Virus record (IMG/VR): IMGVR_UViG_3300032132_000764
Coordinates: 1 to 33,839 of that record
DNA length: 33,839 bases
Direction: 5' to 3' (one strand)
DNA from: a virus
Made by a program: the position numbers and the translations under genes. Shown one piece after another: positions 6,501 to 22,769 of the stretch (within the stretch, counting starts at the first letter, position 1; every line of letters begins with the position of its first letter). The notes under the pieces were generated by a model. That model saw only the letters and a list, made by a program, of their open reading frames with translations, did no database searches and had not been told where the DNA came from.

Positions 6501-8426
6501 ATCGATGTAGGGGTCGAAGACCCGCCACTCGACGCAGCCGATGAAGAGCATGAAGTCGGAAAAATCGACTGAAGAACCGAGGCCGGTTTTCCAGGTCAGC
6601 CACGGCTTAATGACGCGCGGCGCGTTGAGCCGCTCGAACCTGAACGTATTTCCCTTGTTGTTCACGACTTTGGGCTGAACGAGCCATAGGGACTCAAACT
6701 TGTTCTTGATCTTCCCGCCGTATATCGGCGCCGTGATGTTGTCCCAGCGATCGGAGAAATAGAGCTTGGTGCCGAACGTCAACGCGTTGCCGATGATCTC
6801 TTCGATCTGCACCTCCTCGCCATGCCGATGGCTGTCCGGCGTGCGTGCATGTGGATAAGACCCGTCAGCCTCAGCCGTCGAGCGGGTCCTGGCGAAGCAG
6901 CCGAGCTTTATCCAGTCGCCAACATTGCAGTTGGCGGGCAGCGTGTTGAACGTAGCGGTCGTCTTGCCGTTCGGCGCGGTGCCGGCGGTGTGCGAAAGCG
7001 TGGAAACCGTGTTGACGTTTTTGTTGAACGCGTAGCTGTCGGCCAAAACCCACTGCAGCCGATAATAACTCGATCCATTCTTGCACTGGATCTGATGGCC
7101 GTTGAAATCGATGACGACTTGGCCGCCTTTGCCGTTGAAATTGTATGTTGTTATCCAGTCTGAGGACAGCGTGATCGACGACGTCAAGCGGATTACGGTG
7201 CGGCCCGAACCGTCGAATGCAGCAACCATGGCGTTGTGCAAATCCGGACGATTGCCGACTGAAACCGGCTCCTGGTGTGTCGGCGCGGCCGGCGGGCCTG
7301 CCAAGCCGTCCGTCTCTTGAAACCAGGCGTCGGTCGAGTTCTGAATTGGTGTCGGATCGGGCGGCGGCGGCGGCGGGATGACAACGACATCCTCGCCGGT
7401 CACGCCGTCATAGGTGCCGGACAGGGGTTCGGCACCGTCTCCACTTACCGAGAAGAACCCGGCCGGATCGGATTGATTGAAAAATTCGGTTTTGATCCAG
7501 CCCGCCGAACGGGTCTTGGCCGTGATCCTGAGTTCGTCGATCAAGCCGTTCCACGGCGCCTCGCCGTCGCCGAAACCCGCCTCCTCCCAGCTCGGACCGA
7601 CCATGAATTTGTAACCCGCCGGGATCGACCAGGGCGACGTCAGAGCATTGCCGTTGGTCGGATCATGGGTTGCCGCCCATGCCACCGGGTCGCCGTTGAC
7701 GTACAGCGTGGGTGCCGAGCCGGCGGCTTTCGCGATGGCGATATAGGTCGCGTCGGTAGATTGTAGGTTAAGCGGCGATTCCCATTCGGCACCGTTATGG
7801 CCGAACTTGAAACAGTTGCCTGTATTGCCTTGCAGGAAAGCCCGCTTATCGAAACGGAAGTAGTTGCGCGCGTTGTCTCGACTGGCCGGCGCGTCGCTGA
7901 TCACGTAGACCGCCGCGTCGGTGTCGATCGCATCCGCCTTGATCCAAAACGACATCGTCCACGACGTCAGGCCGTTCAAGAATGCAGCGTCGATCTCCAT
8001 CCGGTCATTTGCGAAGTCCCCAGCCGAGCCGATCAGCGACCCCGCCGCCGGCGCCGAGACGACCGACAGGTCATGGCCGTTGCCAGTCCGGTCGGTTCCG
8101 TCGAGCGTATCCCAAACCGCGATGTAGTCTCTCCAAACGGCGACTGCCGTTTGTTCCGATGCGGCCAGATCCTTCTTGCCGGTGTATTGGTAAATCGCCG
8201 TGTCCGCACCGTTGGAAAGCCGTGGGATCGACACCCAGGCGACTGCGTCGCCGGCGGCACCGTCATAATCACTGGCCTTGATCTCGTGGCTCAGACGGAC
8301 GTTTGTCTTGGTGCCATAGCGCAAATCGAGCGGCGCTGTGCCCTCGATTTCACCGCCGGCAGAGACTGGTTTCAGGTAATCGGCCCCGCCGACCTTCACC
8401 AGAAAAGGGAAATTGAGATGCGGCAT
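3576..8426 (-). CDS. Giant tail fibre: DUF2341-like + LamG N-terminus, two beta-helix modules
   Basis: 1616 residues with a strong Shine-Dalgarno site (CCGGAGGCGCCG before ATG). Residues about 1-95 resemble DUF2341 (AWVSIPRLSNGADTAIYQYT). Residues about 100-330 form a concanavalin/LamG-like domain (RTGNGHDLSV to WNGLIDELRITAKT), followed by a proline linker (VVIPPPPPPDP). Two long right-handed beta-helix-like modules follow, about 370-960 and 980-1616. The first aligns with the body of the neighbouring 979-residue fibre and ends in the same VVINNPNNI-type strand. The second has no counterpart in that fibre. I infer a host-surface-binding or polysaccharide-binding spike. I see no defined glycosidase site, though depolymerase activity cannot be excluded. 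Confidence 0.75.
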   Translation of the reverse strand: MPHLNFPFLVKVGGADYLKPVSAGGEIEGTAPLDLRYGTKTNVRLSHEIKASDYDGAAGDAVAWVSIPRLSNGADTAIYQYTGKKDLAASEQTAVAVWRDYIAVWDTLDGTDRTGNGHDLSVVSAPAAGSLIGSAGDFANDRMEIDAAFLNGLTSWTMSFWIKADAIDTDAAVYVISDAPASRDNARNYFRFDKRAFLQGNTGNCFKFGHNGAEWESPLNLQSTDATYIAIAKAAGSAPTLYVNGDPVAWAATHDPTNGNALTSPWSIPAGYKFMVGPSWEEAGFGDGEAPWNGLIDELRITAKTRSAGWIKTEFFNQSDPAGFFSVSGDGAEPLSGTYDGVTGEDVVVIPPPPPPDPTPIQNSTDAWFQETDGLAGPPAAPTHQEPVSVGNRPDLHNAMVAAFDGSGRTVIRLTSSITLSSDWITTYNFNGKGGQVVIDFNGHQIQCKNGSSYYRLQWVLADSYAFNKNVNTVSTLSHTAGTAPNGKTTATFNTLPANCNVGDWIKLGCFARTRSTAEADGSYPHARTPDSHRHGEEVQIEEIIGNALTFGTKLYFSDRWDNITAPIYGGKIKNKFESLWLVQPKVVNNKGNTFRFERLNAPRVIKPWLTWKTGLGSSVDFSDFMLFIGCVEWRVFDPYIDRPDELAVISTKAYGIRGNAMKRGNVVRTRNSNLAYNAARLRHFTDCGDSKPNSNNDQTDLMRAGQTHEFGVTDCKTGDMGSGNDNNPFAMHQNANACRWRGALQNLGTNTTDYLIAMRGVNHIVENMDMVTNPTNTPYNAIFQGFNEASESLFEFGSTGQGDSPWFGTSNSLFDIHFRNNLFVVPSGKSLFSIDDGWYGPFQHDNNTIHHYGSSIPLDFSPGVAYGDHTGEVYPSGKLAGYTASGREDGGLIIMPGSTCRQAARVKNGAEIVFDHYRIDLQHVTSGTFTVCSVEGAADGAPASAASGTVVINNPNNIQIVKGSSAINVIDENATVPLDTTPQWSQQARDFLFDNANPVLPTPTEPEDILTANDLGELETHLNTACAAVGKVTEVKLGQDITGGETGWRKTFTIQDGATVIYNGNNFWLDGNGNELCPVFKGTMGDSVNVLGVEYEFGTASWGDNAIVEFDALPTGTVAGPYPTGSIIKIYVPHTSDTYDPTLGCEYWARKSNKRKIGIAFRVLEIEHLANSVKCKTDGIFYDDPAENYFDQVAKKGLMKARRYEVRPDSLYLVDYWQRDGTDQRALWLWTLERSHLLRPRIESSHDGDFLPKIQPDNCFETKLYNPSYTSPADLPQLKQIVISSLFCGRRTVAVVNEDGPAGGQPVNAECCRDFIDGASGSWGYNTGQSDYYYAERAGSDYETGHKDLTAGRKIGSGFSGHEATVAMWAHSFEFTTEVKSAGVTSWVFVRCAQGRGHMSIIENYESRADYTPANVNMFGGSNASAGWGGRNVSGWDSIYRDGTAIINVTGRRITANTPNQACIGPYHTIRREFQITATPEINNHTYSTFHNAKEPMLWNCDAGEDIINSQHVYRPDLLPNRLRWTSTEDLVRVMANMNLTIFTGARHGEMTVKDMTVDLAGMTSGRITIAHFVAGSGWTSEISGNVLVLNKHPNVTVRPTYGDGNMSGLHITLG

Positions 8427-8808: not shown

Positions 8809-11748
8809 CTATTCGTTGATAATGGTCCCGGTCCAACTGCCGCCGCCAGTTTTATCAGTGATATCAATATTGTTTGGATTATATACGTTAATCGTACCAA
8901 ACGCCGAACAGGCCGGATGCGTGTTCGGTTCTTCAGTTTCCGCGCCCTCTAAAGACATGATCGTGAACGACCCTGACGAATAGGCGGAAACATCAATGCG
9001 AAAATGATCAAACTCAACGATAGCGCCGTTGCCAATCGTGAAGGCCTTTCGGCACGTTGAGCCTGATTGGATAACCAAGCCGCCGCCCTCTTTGCCACGG
9101 AATCTCCAAGTCCCAAGCCCGCCGCCCTCGCGTTCGCCGGAATGATAGCCGTTGGCCACGCCGGGCGTAATCGTGAATGCAGTGTTAGAACCATATTTGT
9201 TCCACGTATTGTTGTCAAAATACATGGGCCCGTAGTAGCCGGGGAAGATCCCGAGAAACACCACGTCGAAGCCATTATTCTTGTCGACCAAGACCGAATC
9301 GCGCAACGTGTGACCGAAGCAAGCGTTATGGTAGCCGCCAGAATTGCTGCCAACCGCGCCGAATTCGAAATACTTTGCCGAACTTTCGTTGTAAGGCTGA
9401 AATATGTGATCAAAGTAACCAGCCGCCGGCGGATTGGCCACCATATCGATACCTTCAACGACCATATGCGTCCCGCGCCATGCTTGAATTCGCCGCGGGA
9501 TAATGTTGTTGTTGGTGCCGATCGTTTGAATATCGCCGCGGACGCGTTGCCCGACTTGCTGGCTATGTGATGACACTGGGTTCTGCCCGGCGGCGTCTCC
9601 CATCTTGCCATTGGAAATGCCGGGCTCTATCTGACCGCCGGCCTTTAGAAGCTTTTCGGTATCGGTCCCGATCGTGGTCCAAGCCTCGCCGCCATCCAAC
9701 ATGGATTTGAGGCCGCGCGCGTTTTCGGTGAACGGGCATGCCGGCGTTCGGATCAGATGCAGCCGCTTGCACGATGCCGGATTGAAGCCATACGACACAT
9801 TGCCTGCAATCGACAGGCCGCTAGGTGTGCCCATAAACCAGTCGAACATCTTGAATTGGACGGCGCCGCGTGCGGTGCAAAGTCTCCCGTCGCCAATATT
9901 AACGTTCGCATCCCATCCCATGTAAGGTCGGATGACACGGGCGTCGACCAAGGCGCCAAAGTTGAAATATTGCCGGGAATTGCGGATGGCTTTGAAGTCG
10001 ACCAACCAAAATGATTCGGGTTTGTTCTTGTAACGGCCGCCATAAATCGGTTCGGTCACTTGATCCCAATATTTGGCATGATAGAGCTTCGTCGTAAATG
10101 TAACGGTGTTGCTCGAAATGCTTTCGACCTGCATAGCTTCGCCCAAAGTATGCCTATGCGGCCACCGGGTGAAAAGCGCTTGGCCTGCCTCTTTGAACTC
10201 CGTTTCTTTGCCGAGATACGCCTCCGCGTTCGCCCAAATCTTGCTGAAAGTGCCGAGCTTAATCCAGTCACCAATCGACAGATTGGCCGGCAACGTCGCG
10301 AATGTGACCGTAGTCTTGCCGTCCGGCGCTTCACCGGCCGTATGCGACATGGCGGTGACACGGTTCGTCACCGCGTTGAAATCCATATTGTCGGTGATGG
10401 TCCAGCCGAACTCGTGGGAGCCGCAGTCGATCTGCCGGCCGTTGAAATCGATGACCAGCCGGCCGCCATGGCCGCTGAAGCTGTAGGTCGTGACCCAATT
10501 CGACGTCAAGGTGATGTCGGCAGTCAGCCTGATGACCGTAAGATTTCCAGCGTTGCCGCTGTTCAACGCCGTGGTAATGGCCGAATCCAGCGCCCCACGC
10601 GTTGATACCTTCTTTACCTCCGGCTCCGGCACCGTCGGCGCTGTTGGAATTGCCTCGTCGGCGAACCATTCGTCTGTGGTATTCATCGATGTCGGCGGTG
10701 GTGGCGGCGGTGGCACCACGACGTTGTCCTCGCCGCTCAAGCCGTCATAAGCATCGGCCGGGACCGGCTCGGCGTCGGCGCCAACGGAAAAGAACGATGC
10801 CGGGAACGCCTGGTTGACGTATTCGGTCTTGATCCAACCAGGTGACCGCACCAGCGGGGTAATTCGAAACTCATCGAACAGACCGTGCAGCGGCGCGTCG
10901 ACCGACGTTATCTCGGTCGGCCCGAATAAAAGTTCTTCGCCAGGTGCCACGGCAAAAGGATCGGATACGACCCCGCTTGTGTCTTGCTTCCAATAATGCA
11001 CCCAACTCACGAACTCGCCGTTCACGTACAGCTTCGGTACTTCACCGACGCGCCATGTAATGCAGACGAAAGTGGCCGAAGAGGTAAGCGCACCGCCTTC
11101 AGACCAGTAGTGGAATGAGTTGAGGCCATACTTCAATACGTCGGTCGCACCCGATCCCGACCCACTGGAATTGAATCGAAAATAGTGCCGGTTGGCGCCG
11201 GCAGTGTTCCCGGCAGGGCCGATCGCCCAAATATTTCCTTCTGTCGGCAGGCTATCCGGTTTGCACCAGAACGAAATCGTGACGCTCTCTAAGCCATTTA
11301 GAAACAACGCATCGCCGGACATCAACGAATTGTTGTATTGGCCGGCCCGGCCGATCAACGTGCCGCTTGATGGCGCCGAAAGTACCGTCAAATCGTGGCC
11401 ATTGCCTGATCGGTCGCGGCCATCGCGGGTGTCCCAGACGCCGAGATAGTCACGCCAGAGGCCGGCCGCCGATTGCTCCGTCGCGGCAAGCCCGGCTTTA
11501 CCGGTGTATTGATAAATCGCGGTATCGGCGCCGGTCGCGAGATGCGGGATGCGGACCCATGAAAGCGCGTCGCCGGCCGTGCCGTCGTAGTCGGCCGCTG
11601 CGATCTCATGATCGAGCCGCTGGTCGCCGGCAGTGGCGAACCGTAGGTCGAGCGGACTGGCTCCCTCGATTTCACCGCCCGCCGACCTGGCTTTCAAATA
11701 GTCCTGGCCAGCGATTTTGACCAGGAACGGGAAATTTGTGTGTGGCAT
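8809..11748 (-). CDS. Tail fibre: DUF2341-like + LamG N-terminus, one beta-helix module
   Basis: 979 residues, ATG overlapping the stop of the 51-residue gene upstream (TGATG). The first 330 residues are paralogous to the 1616-residue fibre: both begin MPH.NFPFLVK, carry GGEIEG, then a DUF2341-like strand set (SWVRIPHLATGADTAIYQYT) and a LamG-like domain with RSGNGHDLTV. A proline-rich linker (VVVPPPPPPP) leads to a single beta-helix-like module with many short parallel-strand repeats, ending in FGTINVYNPNNIDITDKTG. I infer a second receptor-binding fibre sharing the attachment half with its paralogue. Whether both occur in one particle is unknown. Confidence 0.75.
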   Translation of the reverse strand: MPHTNFPFLVKIAGQDYLKARSAGGEIEGASPLDLRFATAGDQRLDHEIAAADYDGTAGDALSWVRIPHLATGADTAIYQYTGKAGLAATEQSAAGLWRDYLGVWDTRDGRDRSGNGHDLTVLSAPSSGTLIGRAGQYNNSLMSGDALFLNGLESVTISFWCKPDSLPTEGNIWAIGPAGNTAGANRHYFRFNSSGSGSGATDVLKYGLNSFHYWSEGGALTSSATFVCITWRVGEVPKLYVNGEFVSWVHYWKQDTSGVVSDPFAVAPGEELLFGPTEITSVDAPLHGLFDEFRITPLVRSPGWIKTEYVNQAFPASFFSVGADAEPVPADAYDGLSGEDNVVVPPPPPPPTSMNTTDEWFADEAIPTAPTVPEPEVKKVSTRGALDSAITTALNSGNAGNLTVIRLTADITLTSNWVTTYSFSGHGGRLVIDFNGRQIDCGSHEFGWTITDNMDFNAVTNRVTAMSHTAGEAPDGKTTVTFATLPANLSIGDWIKLGTFSKIWANAEAYLGKETEFKEAGQALFTRWPHRHTLGEAMQVESISSNTVTFTTKLYHAKYWDQVTEPIYGGRYKNKPESFWLVDFKAIRNSRQYFNFGALVDARVIRPYMGWDANVNIGDGRLCTARGAVQFKMFDWFMGTPSGLSIAGNVSYGFNPASCKRLHLIRTPACPFTENARGLKSMLDGGEAWTTIGTDTEKLLKAGGQIEPGISNGKMGDAAGQNPVSSHSQQVGQRVRGDIQTIGTNNNIIPRRIQAWRGTHMVVEGIDMVANPPAAGYFDHIFQPYNESSAKYFEFGAVGSNSGGYHNACFGHTLRDSVLVDKNNGFDVVFLGIFPGYYGPMYFDNNTWNKYGSNTAFTITPGVANGYHSGEREGGGLGTWRFRGKEGGGLVIQSGSTCRKAFTIGNGAIVEFDHFRIDVSAYSSGSFTIMSLEGAETEEPNTHPACSAFGTINVYNPNNIDITDKTGGGSWTGTIINE

Positions 11749-12252: not shown

Positions 12253-15200
12253 TCATCCCCATGACTCTCCGCCGCTGGCGTTGCCAGGGCCAGTGCTGCC
12301 GCCGGTGCTGCCGCCGGTGCTGCCGCTGGTGCTGCCGCCGGTTCCAGGACCTGGGCCTGGTTCGCCGCCGCCCAAATGACCTTCCCGACGTTTCAAGACC
12401 CTAATGATCTCCGAGCGTTGCCGTGCCGCCAGTATCGCCGCGTCCGCTGCCTCCTGGCGCGCTTCCTCCTCCAGGATCTGGCGGCGCCTTTCCTCTTCTT
12501 CGCGCTTCGCCTCGTCGCGCATGTCTTCTAGATCCGCGTCGGTCGGCTTGACCGTTTCAAATTTCTCGACCGCCTCGCGCAGTTTTTGGATTTCCTCGAT
12601 CTGGGCTTCCTGCAAGGTTTTGAGGGTCTCCGTCTGGTCTTTGGTGGCGTCAAGATGCAGGGAGGCGAGATCGCCAAGGACGGCGCTTTCGCTTGCGTCA
12701 ACGTCGCCGATCACGCCGCTCAAAACTTTGTTGACTTCCTTGAAGACGTCACCGAACTGGGCGCCGGAGGCAAAATTCTCTTGCGCCAGTTGGATCAGGC
12801 TTTGGCCCGAGCCGACCAGGCCTTGAATGGCCTCGACCTCGCCGCGGCCGGCGCGCTTGGCCAGGGAGCGGAAGTCCGACCGCGCCTCGGCGAACTGCTC
12901 TGCCGGCGACAACTGACCGGAATCGATCCGCAGTCTCCGCTGGAACGCCGTCAACGGATCGCGTAACGCGTCAAACCTGTCGCTCGTGCTGTCAAATATG
13001 ACCCGTCCGGCCTGCTCAAACTGCGTTTCCATATTATCCCGGCCTTTGGCCAGGAAATCGGCCATCAGATCTTTGTCGATTTCGAAACGATCGGCGGCGC
13101 GCTTTAGTTTCTGTTGCTCTGCCTCGTATTTTTCGACCATCTCGACAAAGGGATTAACCAGCGATCCGGCGACGACATTGTCGATTTCGTCCAGAAACGC
13201 GTTGCGCGTTTTGACAAATTCCAAGCCCTTCGACCCGCCCAGCTCTTCGATTTTCTTGGCCGCGAATTCGTCGATGTTTTCGATGAACCCTTGCTCTACA
13301 GCGGTTTCGATCAGGTAGTTGACGGCTTTGTCGTAGTCTCTGATTTGATTGAGCTTGAATTGCGTCTCACGATCACGCTCCTCGCCCGGCCGTGTAATCG
13401 GCTGATGATTTTCGTCGAAGTCGATCGGGACCGGTTGCAAGTCCTTTAGCTTGGGGACATAGCCGACTTCGTATCGTATGCCGCCACTCTCTGTCGTCGA
13501 AGAGCCGACGGATAGGTCTACAAGGTTCTTGAAATTCCCGCCAACGACGTCCTGCAAAAAGTACAACTCATCGATGAACTGATTCGAGGCTGCTATGGCG
13601 TCGCCGACAGTGGCATCACGTTTGCGATTGATTTTCGAATGGCCGATAACGCCGTCGCCGCGCGCCTCAAGCCTTGCGGTGCCCCGACTTGTTTCGTTGC
13701 CGCCGTCGCCGGCATAAAGGCCGCCGACAATGTTCCCGATACTGGCGCCGATAGCGGGTTGACCAAAATACGCGCCAATGACACCGCCACCGACAGTGGC
13801 GAGTTTCTGGCTGCGCGGCTGATCCGACAACAGGCTGCCGGCGACGATCATTCCGGCGCCGGCATAGCTTGCACCGGTTCCGCCGAACGGTTCAAACCCT
13901 GATCCCGCCTGCGCGTTCGGCCCGCCCGCCAGCCCGCCTTGCGCTTGCGTGTAAGCGTCGATTTGGGAGGTTCCCGGCGATGACGCGCCGTAATACGTGT
14001 CACCGACCCAACCCGTAGCCCCGCCCGTTGGCTGCGCGGAAAACACATTGCCAATGGTCACCCCTTTACCGGCTTTGGTTTCGGTCGTGACTGATTCCGA
14101 TATCGCCCTAAACACCAGTGCCGACGCGATTTCCGCCACCGCGTCTTCCATGATGTCCACAATCGTCTCGGCGAAATCCCGAAAGCTTGTAATATTGCCG
14201 TCCAACGCGTCGCGGAAGCTGTTGGCCAGCGTGTTTTGGATGTTCTCGCCGGCCCGGCGCCAGATCTCCTCCGTCCTGCGGGCCGCTTGATTCTCGCGCT
14301 CGACCTGCGCGCGTTTCACCGCGTTCTGTTCGCGTAGGCGTAATATCGCCGCCGCCTGCTCCGTGGTGATATCCTTGTCGTTGGCGCGTAAACGGGCCTC
14401 CAACATCAACAGCTCGGCCAATTCCTTGCGGCCGGCCAGCTCGTGGTCCAGCATCTTGCCTTGGAACTCGAGCTCGGCTTTCGTCCGTTCAAACTGCTGC
14501 AGCTCCGGGCGGTCCACCAGGGCGGTATTGATCCTGCCGTGCGTATCGGACTGGGCATTCAAAATGTCGAGGATCGACTGGGCGGAATCGGCAAGGTCGA
14601 TGGCCTGTTCCGTGCCGCGCGCCCTTAGGTCGTCGATTTTTTGTTGTGCCTCTCCAATCGAGAGCTCGCGCTCGTGCGCCTCGGTCAGGCCATTCAGCTG
14701 CGCCTGCTTCTCCGCCGTGCGCTTGACCTCGGCCTCCACCGTTCCCTGCAGCGTATCGCGGCTTTGCCGCGCCTTTTCGGTGCTCTCGCCCGCGGTCTTC
14801 AATTGCTCCCGTTGGATCTCGAGGGTCGATTGTTCGAGCGCATTCTTCTCAGTGGCGCACGGGTCGCACGCCTTGGCCGCGTTGTTGGTGCTGGGTCTGG
14901 TTCGTTCGTGTTCTTGGCAACGCTCGAAAGCGGATTTTCCGTCGAACCCACCATCAACCGATCCCGCCGCATCGGCCCGGATCCCGCGCCAACGCCCCGC
15001 CGATCCGGTACCGCCAGCGTCCGGCGCCAAATCGCCAAAGCCGCCGAATTGGCCATATCCATCAACGGTCGCCAAGCTGCCGTTCAACCCATGCACCGCA
15101 AACTCAAACTGATGCAGCGCGTCAGCCGTTTGGTAGAGATCCTGCGCCAGATGGCTCGTGCCCGCGCCACCGCCGTCGCCGGCCGCCGCCAACGCCCCGG

Positions 15201-16914
15201 CGAGGTTGCCGATCGGCATCCCCATTCCCCCGCCGGCGAGCCGCCGCGGGCCACCCGTATTGTCGCCGGGTTTGTTGAAGCCTTTCGGAGAAACATTGTG
15301 CACGCGGCGCTCCTTGGAAACATAAGATTCAAGGTTACTAACGGTCAGGTTGTAGTACGGATCGGGTGAAACCGAAGCCAGCAGCGCCGCCGCGTCCCCG
15401 GGCACCCGGTTGGCCGGCTCCTCCGCCACCGGTTGGTTGGTGCGCGCCCGGACCAAAGACCCGTCGGCGGCGACCACGGTGCCGTCGCGGCGGATGATCT
15501 CGTCCAGGCACTCGAAGCCGCCCTCGCCCGACAGAAACTGATGCCCCGGCGTCACCCACATGCCGTGGAAATCGAACAGCGGCGTGCCTTGGCCGGTATG
15601 GGTCTCGGTCACCGTCTCGGGCCGCAATGGACCCCGGCCCGCATCCACCGCGCCGTCGAAGGCCATGACCCTGTCGCCGACGCGGACCTCCTCGATCGGC
15701 CTCTCCGTGCCGTCGGCCATCAGGATCGGGGTGCCGGCGCCAAAGCAAAAACTGTGTCTCGGCCGCGGCGCGGCGGCACGGATGGCCGCGGCCGCCCGCG
15801 CGGGATCGGCGCCGGTATTGGTGCGGCTTGCCTCCTCCGCCGTGTCGCCAATTTCCGCTTCGGCGATATCCTTAAGAAATGCAAGCATTTCATCGAACGT
15901 CACCGATCTGATGCCGTCGACCGTGATCCGGGTGTCGGAAATGATATGGGTGATGCCATGAAGCTTGGTTGTAAAGTAGTGCTGGCCGATCAGGCCGCCG
16001 CTTGGATCGTAGGCCACCAAAACCATCTTAGTTGCCTTGCCCAACTCCGGTTTTCTGGCGGCCAGGACAAATTTCTCTCTATAGGTCCCGAGCTTAGTCA
16101 GCAACTTGTCGATCGGCACGGTTTGGTTGTCCAGAAAATGACCGAAAACAGCGCGCCGATTGTAGTCGACCCTCTGTTCCTGCTCGTCCGTCCAATAATC
16201 CGGCGTCTCGACCCGGTCGAAATCGGCGACGCGAAACACCGTGCCCTGGCTGCGGCCCACGCTTGTCACAATGTCCGCGCCAAAGTGGATCTCGACGATT
16301 CTGGCATGCCTTTGCGGGCCGGACTTGGTTTGCCGGATGCTGCCGAGGATGCCGCCGGCGCCCGGCGACGATATGGCGACGACCTGGTCGACCAGCTCTT
16401 CATGTCGGATGGTCAGCCACTTGGCCAGAATGCCGCCGGCGGAATGCCCGGCCACGACGACTTTGGTGAAACCGCGCGCTTTGTCGCTTTTCTTTGCCTT
16501 CACGACAAAGTCGTGCAGCGCTTTAAGCTTCTCTTCCGCCCGCTTCGCAACCACGCCGCCCACCACATTGAATAGCATGGCAAGGCTATCGACGGTATTC
16601 CAGTCCGATTCGTACTCCAGGCCATCGACGTGGATCGACAGTATCTTGTTGTCCGGGTCAAATACGGCAAGCATGCCGACGTTCAATTTGTCGGCGGCGT
16701 CGACGAACTCGAACTCGTTTCGCAGACGGTCGGCCAATTCGGTGCGCGGTGCATCGTTGGGGCCTAGGACTGTGTCCTTGACGGCATTGTGAAAATCGTC
16801 CTCTGTTTTTACATTTTTGAATTTTTTACCGGCACTGACCTGAACCAGCGCATGCCATCTGGCAAGGTCTTCTACGTCTATCGTAGCGACATCTCGCCCG
16901 TTGATTCGTGCCAT
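12253..16914 (-). CDS. Tape-measure protein fused to N-terminal lipase and Hint domain
   Basis: 1553 residues; the upstream stop TAG overlaps the Shine-Dalgarno site (AGGAGA). Residues 1-290 look like a class-3-type lipase: GHSAGG with Ser158, a likely Asp214 in GADIV, and a possible His259 in VFGHFLDN. Residues 390-540 are a PT-HINT/intein-like domain: Cys390 in SFCFGAGTPIL, TPGH (455-458), and terminal VHN with Asn540 followed by Val, so splicing is unlikely but cleavage is possible. Residues about 685-1000 are coiled coil, with a typical tape-measure stretch around SFRDALDGNITSFRDFAETI. A glycine-rich hydrophobic part and a GST-repeat tail follow. Tape measures set tail length and enter the host envelope. 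The added lipase could act on membranes there; that part is inference. Confidence 0.75.
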   Translation of the reverse strand: MARINGRDVATIDVEDLARWHALVQVSAGKKFKNVKTEDDFHNAVKDTVLGPNDAPRTELADRLRNEFEFVDAADKLNVGMLAVFDPDNKILSIHVDGLEYESDWNTVDSLAMLFNVVGGVVAKRAEEKLKALHDFVVKAKKSDKARGFTKVVVAGHSAGGILAKWLTIRHEELVDQVVAISSPGAGGILGSIRQTKSGPQRHARIVEIHFGADIVTSVGRSQGTVFRVADFDRVETPDYWTDEQEQRVDYNRRAVFGHFLDNQTVPIDKLLTKLGTYREKFVLAARKPELGKATKMVLVAYDPSGGLIGQHYFTTKLHGITHIISDTRITVDGIRSVTFDEMLAFLKDIAEAEIGDTAEEASRTNTGADPARAAAAIRAAAPRPRHSFCFGAGTPILMADGTERPIEEVRVGDRVMAFDGAVDAGRGPLRPETVTETHTGQGTPLFDFHGMWVTPGHQFLSGEGGFECLDEIIRRDGTVVAADGSLVRARTNQPVAEEPANRVPGDAAALLASVSPDPYYNLTVSNLESYVSKERRVHNVSPKGFNKPGDNTGGPRRLAGGGMGMPIGNLAGALAAAGDGGGAGTSHLAQDLYQTADALHQFEFAVHGLNGSLATVDGYGQFGGFGDLAPDAGGTGSAGRWRGIRADAAGSVDGGFDGKSAFERCQEHERTRPSTNNAAKACDPCATEKNALEQSTLEIQREQLKTAGESTEKARQSRDTLQGTVEAEVKRTAEKQAQLNGLTEAHERELSIGEAQQKIDDLRARGTEQAIDLADSAQSILDILNAQSDTHGRINTALVDRPELQQFERTKAELEFQGKMLDHELAGRKELAELLMLEARLRANDKDITTEQAAAILRLREQNAVKRAQVERENQAARRTEEIWRRAGENIQNTLANSFRDALDGNITSFRDFAETIVDIMEDAVAEIASALVFRAISESVTTETKAGKGVTIGNVFSAQPTGGATGWVGDTYYGASSPGTSQIDAYTQAQGGLAGGPNAQAGSGFEPFGGTGASYAGAGMIVAGSLLSDQPRSQKLATVGGGVIGAYFGQPAIGASIGNIVGGLYAGDGGNETSRGTARLEARGDGVIGHSKINRKRDATVGDAIAASNQFIDELYFLQDVVGGNFKNLVDLSVGSSTTESGGIRYEVGYVPKLKDLQPVPIDFDENHQPITRPGEERDRETQFKLNQIRDYDKAVNYLIETAVEQGFIENIDEFAAKKIEELGGSKGLEFVKTRNAFLDEIDNVVAGSLVNPFVEMVEKYEAEQQKLKRAADRFEIDKDLMADFLAKGRDNMETQFEQAGRVIFDSTSDRFDALRDPLTAFQRRLRIDSGQLSPAEQFAEARSDFRSLAKRAGRGEVEAIQGLVGSGQSLIQLAQENFASGAQFGDVFKEVNKVLSGVIGDVDASESAVLGDLASLHLDATKDQTETLKTLQEAQIEEIQKLREAVEKFETVKPTDADLEDMRDEAKREEEERRRQILEEEARQEAADAAILAARQRSEIIRVLKRREGHLGGGEPGPGPGTGGSTSGSTGGSTGGSTGPGNASGGESWG
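12293..12340 (-). repeat. 12-base tandem repeat encoding the Gly-Ser-Thr tail
   Basis: Four head-to-tail copies of GTGCTGCCGCCG (plus strand, one substitution in the third) lie inside the tape-measure gene and encode repeated Gly-Ser-Thr-Gly units near its C-terminus. The unit is a multiple of three, so copy-number change would keep the frame. Confidence 0.85.
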
Positions 16915-16926
16915 GTGTCGGTTCTC

Positions 16927-17670
16927 CTACTGTGCCGGCGCGCCCTTTGGCACCAGCAAAATCTCACGGAAATTGATTTCTGGTTTCGCGCCCACGCGGC
17001 AATACCATATGTGTGGGCCAAGGCGATCAGCGGAAATGGAAAAGACCAGTGACTGTGAGAAGGCGATGATCTCACCGGTATTGCGGTCGGTCACTTTGCG
17101 AACATGCCGGGATAAGGTCGAGCCATTGGTTCTTGTTCTCGTCGACTCGTTATCGTAGCGATAGCGGGCGGTAAACGCCTTGATTGGCGTGGTCGCGATG
17201 CAGGTGTGCTGAAATCTACTATACCCGGGGCTGCGGGTTCCCAACGGCCGGTTCGAACGCCACGCTTTTCTTTCCTCAAACAGGGCACAATTGGGGTGGC
17301 CGATCGGCTTTTCCTCGAACCGATAAAGCCCGGGGCCCGGCACGATCGAAAGCAAGTACGCGGTGTAGTCCGCTTCTTTCATCTCCACTTCGACGAAATC
17401 ATAGCCATCGTATTTGATCGCCGATCGACAAATTCCTGAACAGCCCTCCCCACTGCCGTAAACAAATCCCCGCACGTTCTGGACGGTTCGCTTCACGTAA
17501 TACTGCGATTCCTTTTCGCAGACTTCGTCGAACCAGGCCTGCGGGTAGAACAGCGCCGAGCAGCCGGCCAGGGAGAACGCCGCCGGCAATACGGCCACCT
17601 TCAACAACCGCCCCGCGCCCGCCGCGGTGCCGGTCGCCAAGCGCTTCATCTTCCAAATTATCAGTCTCAT
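16927..17670 (-). CDS. Cysteine-rich lipoprotein A, putative immunity partner
   Basis: 247 residues from the ATG at 17670 (a TTG at 17691 is also possible), seven bases after the orphan-lipase stop. The N-terminus has a basic start, a hydrophobic run (VAVLPAAFSLAGC) and a perfect lipobox LAGC with Cys37, so it should be lipidated and placed in the envelope. Six further cysteines (EVC, GCSGIC, NC, TC, YC) could form three disulfides, as expected in the periplasm. It lies 12 bases before the lipase-Hint-tape-measure gene. Immunity proteins of secreted phospholipases (Tle/Tli pairs) are often periplasmic lipoproteins, so I infer protection against the encoded lipase. Superinfection exclusion is another possibility. 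No named family is recognised. Confidence 0.75.
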   Translation of the reverse strand: MRLIIWKMKRLATGTAAGAGRLLKVAVLPAAFSLAGCSALFYPQAWFDEVCEKESQYYVKRTVQNVRGFVYGSGEGCSGICRSAIKYDGYDFVEVEMKEADYTAYLLSIVPGPGLYRFEEKPIGHPNCALFEERKAWRSNRPLGTRSPGYSRFQHTCIATTPIKAFTARYRYDNESTRTRTNGSTLSRHVRKVTDRNTGEIIAFSQSLVFSISADRLGPHIWYCRVGAKPEINFREILLVPKGAPAQ

Positions 17671-17677
17671 AAGCCTC

Positions 17678-18511
17678 TCACCGCGCGCCAATCATCCATA
17701 GACAGCCCACGTGCAAGCCGGCCCGATCAATGCGCCAACCCAGGGACTGCTGCGACCGACGATAACGGTTTACATATTCATATGCAATTTTAAGGCGGTG
17801 CTTCGGCCACACGCGTAAGTTGGCGACGCGAAACACCGTGCCCTGGCCGCGGCCCATGCTTGTCACAATGTCCGCGCCAAAGTGGATCTCGACAATTCTG
17901 GCATGCCTTTGCGGGCCGGACTTGGTTTGCCGGATGCTGCCGAGGATGCCGCCGGCGCCCGGCGACGATATGGCGACGACCTGGTCGACCAGCTCTTCAT
18001 GTCGGATAGTCAGCCACTTGGCCAGAATGCCGCCGGCGGAATGCCCGGCCACGACGACTTTGGTGAAACCGCTTGCTTTGTCGCTTTTCTTTGCCTTCAC
18101 GACAAAGTCGTGCAGCACTTTAAGCTTCTCTTCCGCCCGCTTCGCAACCACGCCGCCCACCGCATTGATGAGCATGGCAAGGCTATCGACGGTATTCCAG
18201 TCCGATTCGTATTCCAGCCCATCGACGTGGATCGACAGTATCTTAGTCTCCCGTTCAAAGACGGCAAGCATGCCGACGTTCAATTTGTCGGCGGCGTCGA
18301 CGAACTCGAACTCCTCTCGCAGACGTTTAGCCACGCCGGGGCGCGGTGCTTTACTTGGGCCTAGGACCGTCTTGTCGAGGGATTCGAGATATTCTTCCTC
18401 TGTTTTCACATTTTTGAATTTTTTACCAGCACTGACCTGAACCAGGGCATGCCATCTGGCGAGGTCTTCTACGTCTACTGTAGCAACTTCCCGCCCGTTG
18501 ATTCGCGTCAT
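17678..18511 (-). CDS. Orphan truncated lipase, paralogue of the tape-measure N-terminus
   Basis: 277 residues with Shine-Dalgarno AGGAGA. Residues 1-230 align without gaps to the N-terminus of the tape-measure protein, keeping GHSAGG (Ser158) and GADIV (Asp214). It then breaks at TVFRVAN and continues with an unrelated tail (RLKIAYEYVNRYRR, to GCLWMIGAR). The region with the candidate catalytic His259, the Hint domain and the tape measure are all missing. Differences from the tape-measure copy cluster at residues 38-66, 86-89 and 115-117. It may be an inactive orphan effector fragment that serves as recombination stock, as in orphan toxin cassettes, or a decaying duplicate. The intact frame favours recent origin or retained use. 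Confidence 0.75.
   Translation of the reverse strand: MTRINGREVATVDVEDLARWHALVQVSAGKKFKNVKTEEEYLESLDKTVLGPSKAPRPGVAKRLREEFEFVDAADKLNVGMLAVFERETKILSIHVDGLEYESDWNTVDSLAMLINAVGGVVAKRAEEKLKVLHDFVVKAKKSDKASGFTKVVVAGHSAGGILAKWLTIRHEELVDQVVAISSPGAGGILGSIRQTKSGPQRHARIVEIHFGADIVTSMGRGQGTVFRVANLRVWPKHRLKIAYEYVNRYRRSQQSLGWRIDRAGLHVGCLWMIGAR
17759..17787 (-). promoter_or_regulatory. Candidate promoter upstream of lipoprotein A
   Basis: On the minus strand, TTGCAT is followed after 17 bases by TATCGT, inside a locally AT-rich patch in otherwise GC-rich DNA. It lies about 90 bases before the lipoprotein ATG and is kept in the second copy. The matches to sigma-70 boxes are modest (3/6 and 4/6). It would allow lipoprotein expression independent of the late operon, but the patch also lies in the tail of the orphan lipase frame. 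Confidence 0.25.
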
Positions 18512-18523
18512 GTGTCGGTTCTC

Positions 18524-19267
18524 CTACGGTGCTGGTGCGCCCCTCGGCGGCAGCAAGATCTCAAGAAAACTAATTGATGGTTTCACGCCCCCACGGCAAT
18601 AAATTGTGTCTGGACCAAGGCGATCGCCGGATATGGAAAAGACCGGTTCCTGTGAGAACGCAATGATCTCACCGGTTTTGCGGTCGGTGATTTTGTCAAT
18701 ATGCCGAATCAACATTGAGCTTCCGGAATCCGTATAAGTCGTCTCGTTATCGAATCTGTATCGGGCGGTAAACGCCTTGATCGGCGTGGTCGCAATGCAG
18801 GTGTGCTGAAATCTATCATACCCGGGACTGCGGGTTCCCAACGGTAACCCCGAACCGCTCGCCAAATACTCCTCGAACACCCTGCAATTCGGATGGCCGA
18901 TCGGCTTTTCCTCGAACCGATAGAGCCCCGGACCCGGCACATACAAACGTTCGTACTCTGTGTAACTGGCTTTTTTCATCTCCGCTTCGACGAAATCATA
19001 GCCTTCGTATTTGATCGCCGATCGACAAATCGCTGAACAGCCCCGTCCCTCGCCGTGAACGAATCCCCGTACGTTCTCGACGGTCCGCTTCACGTAGTAT
19101 TGCGATTCCTTTTCGCATACCTCGTCGAACCAGGCCGGCGGGTAGAACAACGCCGAGCAGCCGGCCAGGGAGAACGCCGCCGGCAGTACGGCCACCTTCA
19201 GCAACCGCGCCGCGCCCGCCGCCGTGCCGGCCGCCAAGCGCTTCATCTTCCAAATTATCAGTCTCAT
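18524..19267 (-). CDS. Cysteine-rich lipoprotein B, paralogue of lipoprotein A
   Basis: 247 residues from the ATG at 19267 (TTG at 19288 possible). The lipobox LAGC and all six downstream cysteines are conserved with copy A. It ends 12 bases before the orphan lipase gene, the same spacing as copy A to the tape-measure gene. Against copy A it differs in clusters, for example KASYTEYERLYVPGPG versus EADYTAYLLSIVPGPG, YLASGSG versus RKAWRSN, and TYTDSGSSMLIRHIDKI versus TRTRTNGSTLSRHVRKV, while RFEEKPIGHPNC and RFQHTCIATTPIKAFTARYR are kept. The clustered change parallels that in the partner lipase, as in effector/immunity pairs that change specificity. Function is inferred. Confidence 0.75.
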   Translation of the reverse strand: MRLIIWKMKRLAAGTAAGAARLLKVAVLPAAFSLAGCSALFYPPAWFDEVCEKESQYYVKRTVENVRGFVHGEGRGCSAICRSAIKYEGYDFVEAEMKKASYTEYERLYVPGPGLYRFEEKPIGHPNCRVFEEYLASGSGLPLGTRSPGYDRFQHTCIATTPIKAFTARYRFDNETTYTDSGSSMLIRHIDKITDRKTGEIIAFSQEPVFSISGDRLGPDTIYCRGGVKPSISFLEILLPPRGAPAP

Positions 19268-19274
19268 AAGCCTC

Positions 19275-19490
19275 TCACCGCGCGCCAATCATCCATAGAC
19301 AGCCCACGTGCAAGCCGGCCCGTTCGATGCGCCAACCCAGGGACTGCTGCGACCGACGATAACGGTTTACATATTCATATGCAATTTTAGGAGGTGCTTC
19401 TATCACACGCGTAAGTTGGCGATGGGAGCCGCCGCGCCCGTGCGGACAGGCCCGGATCTTGGATGGCCAGCCACTTGGCCAGAATGCCGC
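19275..19490 (-). pseudogene. Decayed third lipase cassette fragment
   Basis: From 19275 to about 19417 this repeats the tail of the orphan lipase (KIAYEYVNRYRRSQQSLGWR, ending GCLWMIGAR). Further upstream, pieces of the lipase body remain, such as the plus-strand GCCAGCCACTTGGCCAGAATG at 19464-19484, which corresponds to the codons just after GHSAGG. Large parts between are deleted. A 77-codon open frame crosses it, but it starts in scrambled sequence. It shows that at least three cassettes once stood here. Confidence 0.75.
19356..19384 (-). promoter_or_regulatory. Candidate promoter upstream of lipoprotein B
   Basis: Exact counterpart of the element at 17759-17787 (TTGCAT, 17 bases, TATCGT on the minus strand), again about 90 bases before the lipoprotein ATG. 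The same modest consensus match applies. Confidence 0.25.
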
Positions 19491-19563: not shown

Positions 19564-20340
19564 TTAGTACGGCAGGCGCAGGTAAGCGACGTCGCCGTGC
19601 TCGGCGATAAAGTGGGTCTTTTCCTCGACCGACATGCGCGAGCGCCGGGTCGCGCCGGCCGCGGCCTGGCCCGCCGGGCCGACGCCGGAACCGGAGCCTT
19701 GCTGGCCGCTGCCGTCGAAGGCCCGGCCAAAGTCTTCGCTGGCCCGCATCTCCGCCACCAGTTCGGCCACGGTCATGAACGCGCCGTCATCGGTGCTGCG
19801 CGCGTTGCCGTCCTGGTCGATCACCCGGACGACGAAGGCGCCGTCTTCCTCGACCGCTTTTGACTGGACTTCAACATGGGGCATCAACAGGGTCGGCAAG
19901 CCGCCTTGGCCGGCGATCGCCGCGGTCGCCTCGCTGGCGACCAGTTGCTTGGCAATCATCGCGTCCTTGGCCGCCAGCAAACCGTCCTTGGTGGCGAGCG
20001 CCTTGGCGTGTTCGGCTTTCTGACGTTCCAGGATTTTGTCGAACTCGCCGCGTTCGCGGGCGCGGCGCTCGGCGCGCTCCGTCGATTCCTGGCGCAGGCG
20101 CTTGTGCTCTTCGGGATCGATATCGCCGAACCGTTCGGCCTGTTGCTTGGCGGCGCGGGCGGCACGGCGTGCTTCCTCACGCTCCCGCTTGGCGTGTTCG
20201 AGGGAGCGTTTCAAGCCACCGACGTCTTCGACGCCATCGACATCGAGGCGCCAGTCGCCGTCCTCATGCTGCTTGTAATAGGCGCGCAAGGGTTCGGCGA
20301 CGCCGTCCAGGTCCTGCAGCGTCATGTGTAGTTGGGGCAT
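19564..20340 (-). CDS. Capsid scaffold protein
   Basis: 258 residues, with its ATG one base after the portal stop. Residues about 45-160 form a highly charged, alanine- and arginine-rich coiled coil (EHAKREREEARRAARAAKQQ, then ERAERRARERGEFDKILERQ). A short domain follows (AFMTVAELVAEMRASEDFGR) and a C-terminal helix MSVEEKTHFIAEHGDVAYL. A long coiled coil plus a terminal coat-binding helix and partnership with a portal gene fit a scaffolding protein, which organises coat subunits during procapsid assembly and is later lost. It resembles the DUF6651-type scaffolds. Its usual neighbour, the capsid gene, is some 10 kb away at 30779-31759. Confidence 0.75.
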   Translation of the reverse strand: MPQLHMTLQDLDGVAEPLRAYYKQHEDGDWRLDVDGVEDVGGLKRSLEHAKREREEARRAARAAKQQAERFGDIDPEEHKRLRQESTERAERRARERGEFDKILERQKAEHAKALATKDGLLAAKDAMIAKQLVASEATAAIAGQGGLPTLLMPHVEVQSKAVEEDGAFVVRVIDQDGNARSTDDGAFMTVAELVAEMRASEDFGRAFDGSGQQGSGSGVGPAGQAAAGATRRSRMSVEEKTHFIAEHGDVAYLRLPY

Positions 20341-20341
20341 A

Positions 20342-21772
20342 TCAGTTGGTCTCCTTCAAAGAGTGCCTTCCGGCGGGATTGGCCTCTTGGGCCGGTTCAG
20401 CCGGCAGGCCGGCATCGGGTTCGGCGCGGCGCACCGCATCCAGGGCCACGTCGAAATCATCGGACAGGACACCGAGCCGCTTGAGCTCACCGAGATAGGC
20501 GGCGCGGCTGATTTCGCCGTTGGCGCGGGCGCTGGTCAGGATGTCGGCCACGTGTTTACGGTCGCCGATCCAGTCGGGCTGGCAGTCGACGATGATGGTG
20601 CCGACCGTGGCCGGGTCGAGCCCTTGCCAGCGGGCAAACAGGCCGAACATGTCCTCCAGCGCAACCTTCAAGGCGCCTGCCCAGGCCAAGAGCGGCGCCA
20701 TCCCCTCGCCTGCATCGATCGCCCGACCCGTCGCCGTTTCCTTGGACCCGGCGCGGGTCTCGAACTGCAGCCCGAACTGGCGCATCTGGCGCTCCAAGGC
20801 CTCGATCTCGTCGCGGCCGGCGGCGAGATGGGCGCCGCTCGATTCGACGTAATAGAACTTGCCGTTGTCGCTCGACATGGTGAGCAGCTTGTTGGGGCCG
20901 AATTCGATTTCGCCATCGTCCTCCTCGCGCCAACCCGACGCGGCAAGGATGGGAAAACTGGCGACGTTCAACGCATTACGCTGGTCGGAACGGAGCTGCC
21001 AATGTTCGAGCTGCATCCAGGCCAGCGCCTCCAATGGCGGCCGCGCCTCGAAGAAGCCGACTGGCGCGGTTTGCAAGGCAACGACCGGTACGGCGCCGAG
21101 GGAATTGCGGCCGTCGGCGGCCAGGCTCCAAGCGCCCTCGACCAAGCGATAGCGGCGCCATAGATCAGGCTCCAGCACCAGGATTTCCTCGACGCTTTGC
21201 TCACCGAAGGCGTCGGCCGGCTCGGTCAGGGCACGGCGGATACGGACCTGGGTCAGTACCTGGTGGCCGCCGATCATTTCCGCCCGCGCGCCGATTACTT
21301 CGGCTGCCGACAAGCCAACCGCATAGGGCCGGGCGCCGAGGGCGCGTTCCTGGGCCAGGTTGAGCGCCGCCGACACCGCCGGAAAATCCACCAACACATA
21401 GGCGATGCCGTCGATCAAGGCGTCACGAAACAAGGTGCGGGCGAAGGCGTCGAGGCCGTGGCCGGCGAGGTCGACATTGGCGGCATAGGCGCGGAGTGCG
21501 GCGGGCATGTCGTCGCCGAGGCAGAGCGGCTTGGCGAAGACCTTGCCGATCAAGCTGTCGATGGTGCGGGCAAAGAAGTTGCGCAGCACCGTGCGTTTTA
21601 GACGCGCCTCATAGTGGCGTCTGTTTTCCGCCGGATGGCGCGGCAAATAGGTCTCGCCCGCCGCCCGCATGGCGGCATTGCCGCCCATCAGGCTGCGTGG
21701 CAGGTGATAGCGCTCAGCCATCCGCCGATAGGCGGCCGAGGGCTCGGACGGATCCGGATCCGGGTCGTTCAT
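20342..21772 (-). CDS. Portal protein, DUF4055-like
   Basis: 476 residues, ATG with AGGAGACC upstream. Features of this portal family include the N-terminal YLPRHPAENRRHYEARLKRT and NFFARTIDSLIGKVFAKP, the central GIAYVLVDFPAVSAA and SLGAVPVVALQTAPVGFFEA, and the stem/wing helix WQLRSDQRNALNVASFPIL, followed by long C-terminal helices. The portal is the dodecameric vertex that binds terminase and passes DNA. Normally it follows the large terminase gene and precedes scaffold and capsid genes. Here portal and scaffold stay together but sit between the tail chaperones and the tape measure. The family call is by recalled pattern and I am fairly sure of it. Confidence 0.8.
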   Translation of the reverse strand: MNDPDPDPSEPSAAYRRMAERYHLPRSLMGGNAAMRAAGETYLPRHPAENRRHYEARLKRTVLRNFFARTIDSLIGKVFAKPLCLGDDMPAALRAYAANVDLAGHGLDAFARTLFRDALIDGIAYVLVDFPAVSAALNLAQERALGARPYAVGLSAAEVIGARAEMIGGHQVLTQVRIRRALTEPADAFGEQSVEEILVLEPDLWRRYRLVEGAWSLAADGRNSLGAVPVVALQTAPVGFFEARPPLEALAWMQLEHWQLRSDQRNALNVASFPILAASGWREEDDGEIEFGPNKLLTMSSDNGKFYYVESSGAHLAAGRDEIEALERQMRQFGLQFETRAGSKETATGRAIDAGEGMAPLLAWAGALKVALEDMFGLFARWQGLDPATVGTIIVDCQPDWIGDRKHVADILTSARANGEISRAAYLGELKRLGVLSDDFDVALDAVRRAEPDAGLPAEPAQEANPAGRHSLKETN

Positions 21773-21853: not shown

Positions 21854-22210
21854 CTAATGGTGCTTCTTGGCCCCTCTTCCCCGATCCTTGTCCTTCTCCC
21901 TCTGCCAGGCCAGATACTCCTCGTCGATCGCCGCGACCATATCGAGCATATCCCGGCAGGCCTCCGGACCGTCGATTTCATGGATCCGGCAATAGTCGAT
22001 CACCGCGTCGATCGGGATCGGGCCGAGGCCGCCGAAATGCACCACGCGATAGCGGTTCAGGAAGTGGAACGCCGTCATATAGGGCCTGAGCCGGTGGTCG
22101 ACGTCGGGGCGGTCTTGCATCGCCTTGACCTTATGGCCGCCGGCGGCCAGGCGTTCGAACCAGGCCGCTTGCTCACCCCAGGTCAGGTCCCAGCGGAGCG
22201 CGGCTTTGAC
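21854..22210 (-). CDS. Tail assembly chaperone, frameshift (T) part
   Basis: Read in the -1 frame relative to the upstream chaperone. From the slippery site the frame is open without a stop through LRWDLTWGEQAAWFERLAAG and into DRPDVDHRLRPYMTAFHFLN, ending in a basic KDRGRGAKKHH tail. An internal ATG at 22120 exists, but the coding-like sequence clearly begins before it. That fits a G-T fusion made by ribosomal slippage: about 130 residues of the first frame plus 118 of this one. Such fusions bind the tape measure and recruit tail-tube subunits in lambda-like tails. Unusually, the tape-measure gene does not follow directly; portal, scaffold and cassettes intervene. Confidence 0.75.
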   Translation of the reverse strand, partial: VKAALRWDLTWGEQAAWFERLAAGGHKVKAMQDRPDVDHRLRPYMTAFHFLNRYRVVHFGGLGPIPIDAVIDYCRIHEIDGPEACRDMLDMVAAIDEEYLAWQREKDKDRGRGAKKHH

Positions 22211-22599
22211 TTTTTTGCCGCCTTGGCGTCGTCCTCCGCCTTGAACGTCTCCATGCTGACCGACAGGCTGAATATCTGTTCGCGCAAATCAGAATAGCTG
22301 CCCAGCACCCGGACCGCAGTGTCGACACTGTAATCCAAGGGCTCGCCGCCCTCCTCGATACCGCCCCAATCGACGATCACGCCCTCGGCAATCTGTCGGG
22401 TCAGGATGTCTTCCATGACCTTTTCCGGGATCTTGGCGAGCTTGCCGTAGGGGCGCTCCAGGCGTTCGCGGACGCGCCGGCAGGCTTTCGAGGAGAACCG
22501 TCTCACCACGATCCACGTACCGTCGCCGAGGTCGATCCGCTTGCCTTCTTCCTCGGCATCCCGATCCGTGCCGAATTCCTTCTTCAAATCCAATGCCAT
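22183..22599 (-). CDS. Tail assembly chaperone, G part
   Basis: 138 residues. I chose the ATG at 22599 over an in-frame upstream start because GGAGAGAAA lies just before it. The protein starts MALDLKKEFGTDRDAEEEGK, contains IDLGDGTWIVVRRFSSKACR, and ends in lysine-rich DDAKAAKKSKPRSAGT, the stretch where the slippery codons lie. Size, charge and position after the major tail tube gene match the G protein of siphovirus tail chaperone pairs, which is made in excess over the G-T fusion. A 24-base perfect palindrome lies directly upstream of its ribosome binding site. Confidence 0.75.
   Translation of the reverse strand: MALDLKKEFGTDRDAEEEGKRIDLGDGTWIVVRRFSSKACRRVRERLERPYGKLAKIPEKVMEDILTRQIAEGVIVDWGGIEEGGEPLDYSVDTAVRVLGSYSDLREQIFSLSVSMETFKAEDDAKAAKKSKPRSAGT
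22210..22216 (-). promoter_or_regulatory. Programmed -1 frameshift site A AAA AAG
   Basis: On the minus strand the codons GCA AAA AAG form the heptamer A AAA AAG in the correct X XXY YYZ phase, eight codons before the first-frame stop. Slipping by one base enters an open frame to 21854 with coding character. A AAA AAG is among the most efficient bacterial slippery heptamers, and tail chaperone genes are its classic phage site. Confidence 0.85.
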
Positions 22600-22618
22600 C
22601 GCTTTCTCTCCATCGCTA

Positions 22619-22642
22619 GCCCTGTTTCGATCGAAACAGGGC
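22619..22642. promoter_or_regulatory. 24-base perfect palindrome upstream of the chaperone gene
   Basis: GCCCTGTTTCGATC and its mirror make a 24-base perfect palindrome centred at 22630/22631, ending about seven bases before the chaperone ribosome binding site. As DNA it could be an operator for a dimeric regulator. As RNA it folds into a 10-base stem with a GAUC loop next to the Shine-Dalgarno sequence. No T-run follows, so it is not a normal terminator. Confidence 0.75.
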
Positions 22643-22769
22643 ATCTAGGTTGCGCTTACGCCAATGCGCTGTTGGCACATGGCTCCACGGGGGCGGCGTT
22701 TACCGCGCCGGGGCCACAGTCGCGGCCCTGACCGCGTCATTCACAATCGAACGCGGTCTATCAAAGGGT

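Follow-up and report, generated by a model that had tools for sequence, protein, structure and literature searches.

A lipase-like hydrolase and a Hint domain at the head of a phage tape-measure protein, encoded beside a putative guard lipoprotein

Results

Gene content of the locus

We analyzed the whole of virus record IMGVR_UViG_3300032132_000764 (33,839 nt, hereafter the window), a single record whose relatives point to Alphaproteobacteria as the host. The original prediction for this DNA described an uninterrupted frame of 1553 residues at 12253-16914 that joins a lipase, a PT-HINT domain and a tape measure. We confirm these coordinates and this length; the gene runs from 16914 to 12253 on the minus strand, which had gone unstated. 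Its sole stop lies at the end of the frame, and the other five frames across the gene carry 16-49 stops each. We looked for a frameshift or stop between the lipase and tape-measure parts and found none; a frameshifted gene or pseudogene is thus ruled out by the continuous frame, and the codon pattern is steady across all junctions of the fusion. The motifs had also been placed exactly (GHSAGG at 156-161, Cys390, T455-P-G-H458, and His539-Asn540). Of the proposed architecture, the putative hydrolase, a Hint domain of complete self-processing type and the tape measure all stood, and the name PT-HINT did not. The features of the region are as follows.

12253..16914, minus strand: fusion gene, 1553 aa, hydrolase, linker, Hint domain and tape measure (frame and motif inspection)
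16015..16914, minus strand: putative lipase-like alpha/beta hydrolase, residues 1-300, with elbow GHSAGG (Ser158) and candidate Asp214 and His259; the G071 homologue has GHSLGG
15748..16014, minus strand: linker, residues 301-389 (sequence)
15295..15747, minus strand: Hint domain, residues 390-540, with Cys390, TPGH at 455-458 and His539-Asn540, followed by Val541 (Pfam, alignment and model)
12256..15294, minus strand: complete tape-measure protein, residues 541-1553 (homology and gene order)
15217..15219, minus strand: Met566, candidate internal tape-measure start, with GGGGGA 6 nt upstream (sequence only)
16927..17691, minus strand: lipoprotein B, 254 aa, lipobox LAGC, directly upstream of the fusion gene
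17678..18511, minus strand: truncated hydrolase duplicate, 277 residues, alike over 1-232 and then continuing in out-of-context sequence, without the His259 region (alignment)
18524..19288, minus strand: lipoprotein A, 254 aa, 79% identical to B (alignment)
19564..20340, minus strand: scaffold-like protein, displaced from beside TerL (gene-order comparison)
20342..21772, minus strand: portal protein, displaced from beside TerL (gene-order comparison)
21854..22644, minus strand: tail assembly chaperones in two frames, directly ahead of the tape measure in relatives (gene-order comparison)

Several of these elements were absent from the original prediction, namely the lipoprotein partner, the tandem duplication and the complete tape measure behind the fusion, as was the hydrolase–Hint head that we find on a bacterial RTX/T1SS protein. 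Neither the fusion gene nor the lipoproteins nor the large fibre-like ORFs matched any PHROG, and NCBIfam gave weak matches only, far under the cut-offs.

The stop codon of lipoprotein B (TAG) is part of the TAGGAG ahead of the fusion gene, which couples the stop of one gene to the ribosome site of the next. DNA alignment reveals one tandem duplication of approximately 1.6 kb that comprises the leader, the lipoprotein gene and the first 232 hydrolase codons, and its junction deprives the first hydrolase copy of the His259 region. Comparison of the copies gives a dN/dS of 0.41 for the lipoproteins, a pair under purifying selection on average, and of 0.53 for the hydrolases. In the hydrolase copies dS falls toward the 3' end (0.29, 0.12, and 0.06), which suggests gene conversion between them. 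The lipoprotein family has no Pfam match and no PDB relative.

The hydrolase and Hint domains

The hydrolase stays under the Pfam cut-offs: PGAP1 reaches 20.8 bits against a cut-off of 24.3, and there are sub-threshold alpha/beta-hydrolase matches at approximately 143-233. It has a homologue in the N-terminal hydrolase of a protein from the alphaproteobacterial genome G071 (Z 10.9 against shuffles). Ser158 and Asp214 align with homologues, and His259 is placed by position alone. Likeness to the type VI secretion system (T6SS) lipase 7ubz is weak (E 0.13), and a structure model of residues 1-545 built from the phage's own two hydrolase copies was uninformative (pLDDT 34). From motif and homology, residues 1-300 are assigned as a putative lipase-like alpha/beta-hydrolase with a GHSAGG elbow.

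For the Hint domain, Pfam Hom_end_hint matches residues 390-423 at 34.6 bits (cut-off 32.1). The fusion gene has no match to the PT-HINT family (PF07591), and the Hint domain of the G071 protein reaches 20.6 bits with that model, under the cut-off of 27.7. We therefore set the PT-HINT label aside, the domain being nearer to A-type bacterial intein-like (BIL) domains and Hom_end_hint. Cys390, His458, and His539-Asn540 are kept in an alignment with 20 Hint domains of other viral contigs, where His-Asn was itself the criterion by which the rows were selected. The structure prediction proposed for approximately residues 385-545 gives a Hint fold: the AlphaFold2 model of residues 385-548 has a mean pLDDT of 77, with a poorly predicted insert near 490-510, and the best Foldseek match to the PDB is 2lwy (E 2.1e-7, TM 0.60/0.70), a bacterial intein-like domain from Clostridium thermocellum, followed by other BIL and mini-intein structures. 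Anti-phage defence models matched nothing beyond the Hint domain, where a homing-endonuclease model scored weakly.

The marks of an A-type BIL domain are present (N-terminal Cys, TxxH in block B and C-terminal His-Asn), so that by its residues the domain appears complete for self-processing and closer to the A-type BIL domains than to PT-HINT. Such domains cleave and require no +1 nucleophile (PMC7765530). Because the residue after Asn540 is Val, cleavage would be expected here instead of splicing. Intein splicing was considered and is unlikely, as a +1 nucleophile is lacking and a different protein lies on each side.

A complete tape measure behind the Hint domain

The part after Asn540 comprises 1013 residues, and the tape measures of relatives comprise 1020-1185. 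The relative-like size indicates that the lipase and Hint domains are additions ahead of a complete tape measure. The closest relative is an IMG/VR contig (L023/L089) that has terminase (53%), portal, adaptor, tube, and chaperones in common with the phage, and in which a tape measure of 1185 residues lies directly behind the chaperones. Three further relatives are genome-borne, with tape measures of 1020 (Thalassobaculum fulvum, L104/L203), 1084 (Alpha proteobacterium BAL199, L105/L204), and 1055 residues (L119/L205). Over shuffles, residues 850-1290 of the fusion score Z 13.5 against the L089 tape measure (none of 100 shuffles as high) and Z 6.4-12.2 against those of the other relatives. A second segment, approximately residues 1325-1460, matches the relatives' tape measures with E of about 1e-9 to 4e-7, and the two segments are collinear. 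The tape-measure part of the original prediction is thus borne out by homology and by its position among the genes, which four relatives share. Residues 542-850 show no significant similarity to the N-terminal parts of other tape measures (Z 1-2.3), so the exact native start is uncertain; it could be Met566, a candidate start that would permit separate translation of the tape measure.

The gene order shared by the relatives runs TerL, portal, scaffold, adaptor, tube, chaperone, and tape measure. Here the portal and scaffold genes have moved to between the chaperones and the cassette (19564-21772), and the position of the tape measure is conserved apart from the inserted block. Two tail genes (2067-3572 and 1315-2070) follow the tape measure in the relatives as well, with two large fibre-like genes intervening in the window. 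GC3 is 0.81-0.85 in portal, scaffold, and Hint domain versus 0.67-0.72 in hydrolase, lipoproteins, and tape measure. These differences, with the displaced portal and scaffold, indicate that the region is a mosaic.

The intervening genes (3576-8426 and 8809-11748) encode two large proteins whose N termini are related (DUF2341, LamG-like), the second of which is weakly pectate-lyase-like; they are probably duplicated receptor-binding or depolymerase fibres. Elsewhere in the window, a 1061-residue protein encoded amid head-tail genes (24984-28169) has no family match of any kind.

Related genes in Alphaproteobacteria

Searching 385 alphaproteobacterial genomes with residues 1-545 for hydrolase–Hint proteins gave Hint matches in 18 of them, and none was found in a hydrolase–Hint search of 36 genomes of one order. 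The homologue in G071 is the following.

158732-173818 of G071: hydrolase–Hint–RTX protein, 5029 aa, with an N-terminal GHSLGG hydrolase, then a Hint domain, then RTX/FG-GAP/Ig repeats

Downstream of this gene lie genes for a C39-type ABC exporter and HlyD (a type I exporter), and a lipoprotein gene overlaps it by 4 nt (ATGA). The phage lipoprotein matches the G071 lipoprotein with Z 12.2 after removal of the signal region, and matches orphan lipoproteins of two other genomes (G204 and G418) with Z 26-29. A third locus, in G478, has two lipoprotein genes in tandem and behind them a hydrolase gene interrupted by an in-frame stop; this hydrolase matches that of G071 (Z 51), and its direct comparison with the phage hydrolase is not significant. 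One or more lipoprotein genes thus lie directly upstream of the hydrolase at three of three loci (phage, G071, and G478). Because the hydrolase is rare (one strong match among 372 sampled alphaproteobacterial genomes), such pairing at all three would be unlikely to arise by chance, small as the number is.

Further members of the lipoprotein family found by profile searches are mostly solitary, without a recognisable hydrolase, and some form tandem pairs. Tandem lipoprotein duplication occurs in bacteria at G845:C111:21282-23337 and G478:C1:369592-371556, and at G446:C1:139303-140301 the lipoprotein match falls in two pieces inside one frame.

A possible tape-measure-like segment in the G071 giant protein (L198, residues 742-1021) was set aside as weak (1.8 bits with bias 13; Z 6.3 for the best of four relatives). 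After its Hint domain (residues 742-1031) this protein weakly resembles the glycine-rich middle of related tape measures, with E 0.004 for one segment. Separately, a group of alphaproteobacterial proteins of 400-540 aa (L173-L177, L191, and L192) combine a variable N-terminal part with a Hint domain very like that of the phage (TPGH and the following block), most with a conserved tail whose last residue is His; what is cleaved off may be the variable part.

Searches of viruses and the literature

Searches of viral contigs with single proteins (fusion, hydrolase, and lipoprotein) returned Hint matches only, as did searches of phage and plasmid records; both used short exact patterns, which distant relatives can escape. 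A hydrolase profile scan of the viral contigs found nothing. The Hint profile scan of 2.9 million viral contigs yielded 62 loci, several of which encode J-like tail tip proteins with the Hint domain near the N terminus. None of the 62 matched the hydrolase or tape-measure profiles, and the proposed search for other tape measures with a Hint domain accordingly found none among them. In the open-licence literature no paper pairs "tape measure protein" with "lipase domain," and one of the four papers that mention both a tape measure and a Hint domain has its Hint domain in the terminase. The original prediction knew of no described example of this domain order, and within search sensitivity that holds for the 2.9 million viral contigs, 50,697 phage records, and open-licence papers. 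The predicted lipase–Hint–tape measure arrangement is therefore known from one contig.

The J-like proteins form a pattern of their own. In many viral contigs (L253, L255, L261, L266, L279, L290, and others), lambda J-like central tail fibre proteins carry a Hint domain ending in His-Asn at a distance of approximately 15-40 residues from their start, where it is probably a recurrent self-processing N terminus of tail tips. Other phage proteins with Hint domains include a fibre-like protein with two in tandem (L251, 6001 region) and a radical-SAM/SPASM-like enzyme with two Hint/intein-like insertions at cysteine motifs (L260).

Discussion

Comparison with known systems

T6SS phospholipases are neutralised by adjacently encoded periplasmic proteins or outer-membrane lipoproteins (PMC9860674). 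The phage locus resembles the Tle1/Tli1 and Tle3/Tli3 pairs (PMC9860674) in placing a gene for a putative GxSxG lipase, an enzyme that in those pairs acts on the envelope, beside a lipoprotein gene whose product would neutralise it. It differs in having no T6SS parts (VgrG/Hcp/PAAR), in lying amid head and tail genes with the tape measure as the carrier, and in the lipoprotein family having no Pfam or PDB match and the hydrolase only a faint likeness to a T6SS enzyme. In polymorphic toxin systems, HINT lies right ahead of the C-terminal toxin; the same survey found HINT never with T6SS or PVC, and described phage delivery through MuF head proteins (PMC3482391). As in polymorphic toxins with a pretoxin HINT, a Hint domain stands between a toxin-type enzyme and its long carrier, and an immunity-type gene is adjacent. 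The phage enzyme, however, is N-terminal of the Hint domain, the carrier is C-terminal and the lipoprotein gene is upstream, an order outside that pattern.

With A-type BIL domains (PMC7765530; 2lwy) the phage Hint domain shares Cys1, TxxH, terminal His-Asn, the absence of a +1 nucleophile and a similar fold, but it sits between an enzyme and a phage structural protein, and its cleavage is predicted. The G071 protein has a homologous upstream lipoprotein, an N-terminal hydrolase and a Hint domain next, whereas its carrier is a series of RTX/FG-GAP/Ig repeats beside a type I exporter and not a tape measure. The tape measure of phage phiCbK is likewise fused to an enzyme, a CHAP domain thought to be active at entry (PMC3556154); that enzyme acts on the cell wall, lacks a Hint domain and has no guard lipoprotein described.

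A proposed captured effector–immunity cassette and rival explanations

A cassette of lipoprotein and hydrolase–Hint is well supported by these sequence comparisons. We tentatively read it as an effector–immunity cassette that a tailed phage acquired and joined in frame to the beginning of its tape-measure gene, where the Hint domain would free the hydrolase and the lipoprotein would guard the producer; this reading seems to us only a little short of an even chance. In its favour we count the Pfam and 2lwy matches of the Hint domain, the relative-sized tape measure behind it, the homology of lipoprotein and hydrolase, the upstream lipoprotein at all three loci, the lipoprotein dN/dS, the coupling of stop and ribosome site, and the T6SS phospholipase–lipoprotein precedent (PMC9860674). 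Against it stand a hydrolase below family thresholds, the single phage contig and the lack of any other virus with the cassette. Because most of its relatives are solitary, without a recognisable hydrolase, the lipoprotein family may serve another role.

Under the captured-cassette reading, the Hint domain would cut after Asn540, and perhaps also before Cys390, to leave a relative-sized tape measure and a separate hydrolase. The hydrolase would stay with the tail or exit with the tape measure and attack envelope lipids of the entered cell. The exported lipoprotein would bind the hydrolase in the periplasm and so shield the cell, whether producer or lysogen; further infection by a phage of its own kind would be kept out as well. 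Export of the guard to the periplasm makes sense if that is the side from which the enzyme meets the cell. According to HK97 work cited in PMC10240207, the tape measure leaves the tail at infection, reaches the periplasm and is tied to inner-membrane passage, which would make it a plausible carrier. We infer, as originally suggested, that the lipase is carried inside the tail and freed by self-cleavage; the lipoproteins encoded alongside, expected to function outside the cytoplasm, make this more likely without proving it. A wider proposal is possible but doubtful: that the self-cleaved head of the tape measure is a membrane-lipid-cleaving effector which the virion delivers, paired with a matching lipoprotein guard, for superinfection exclusion or the killing of competitors, and that phage tails and RTX/type I exported proteins exchange this cassette. 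Counted against virion delivery is that a folded domain of 30 kDa may not fit in the tail tube.

The main rival is cleavage ahead of assembly, in which the Hint domain cuts off the hydrolase in the producer, the hydrolase never enters the particle and aids lysis or acts on kin from outside, and the Hint domain protects the tape measure from its passenger. We consider this unlikely. It would give a mature tape measure of normal size, and the Hint domains ahead of lambda J-like proteins, with so few preceding residues, can have hardly any use but to make a new N terminus. A lipoprotein guard, however, acts outside the cytoplasm, and a hydrolase freed in the producer would be inside; lysis enzymes, moreover, seldom need a dedicated guard. 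Less probable still is an entry enzyme, a virion lipase that would help DNA across the outer or inner membrane in the manner of muralytic tape-measure domains, with the lipoprotein serving superinfection exclusion and not as an antidote. Tape measures with cell-wall enzymes are known (CHAP in phiCbK, PMC3556154) and tape measures reach the periplasm and inner membrane (as cited in PMC10240207), but the homologous pair on the RTX/T1SS protein lies outside phages, and the related tape measures have no such enzyme.

That the fusion is a recent, possibly non-functional accretion by tandem duplication and gene shuffling, with the true tape-measure start at Met566, appears highly improbable: the truncated hydrolase copy, the moved portal and scaffold, and the possible ribosome site ahead of Met566 are in keeping with such a history, but all catalytic residues of the Hint domain are kept, as is the coding pattern across the fusion, and purifying selection has acted between the copies. 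A chimeric contig, in which the fusion or the block order is an assembly artefact, is scarcely credible. There is a single virus record, and the portal/scaffold block is out of place with a GC3 of 0.81 versus about 0.70; yet one open frame with a steady codon pattern passes through every junction, the stop of the lipoprotein gene is coupled to the ribosome site of the fusion gene, and the same pair order recurs in G071.

If the captured-cassette reading is true, the tape measure would be a carrier of effector enzymes beside the known MuF head route, and effector–immunity cassettes would move between secretion systems and phage tails. The self-cleaving joint would explain how a length-measuring rod can bear a bulky passenger without disturbing tail assembly. 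The locus also brings to light an uncatalogued lipoprotein family, whose role is testable.
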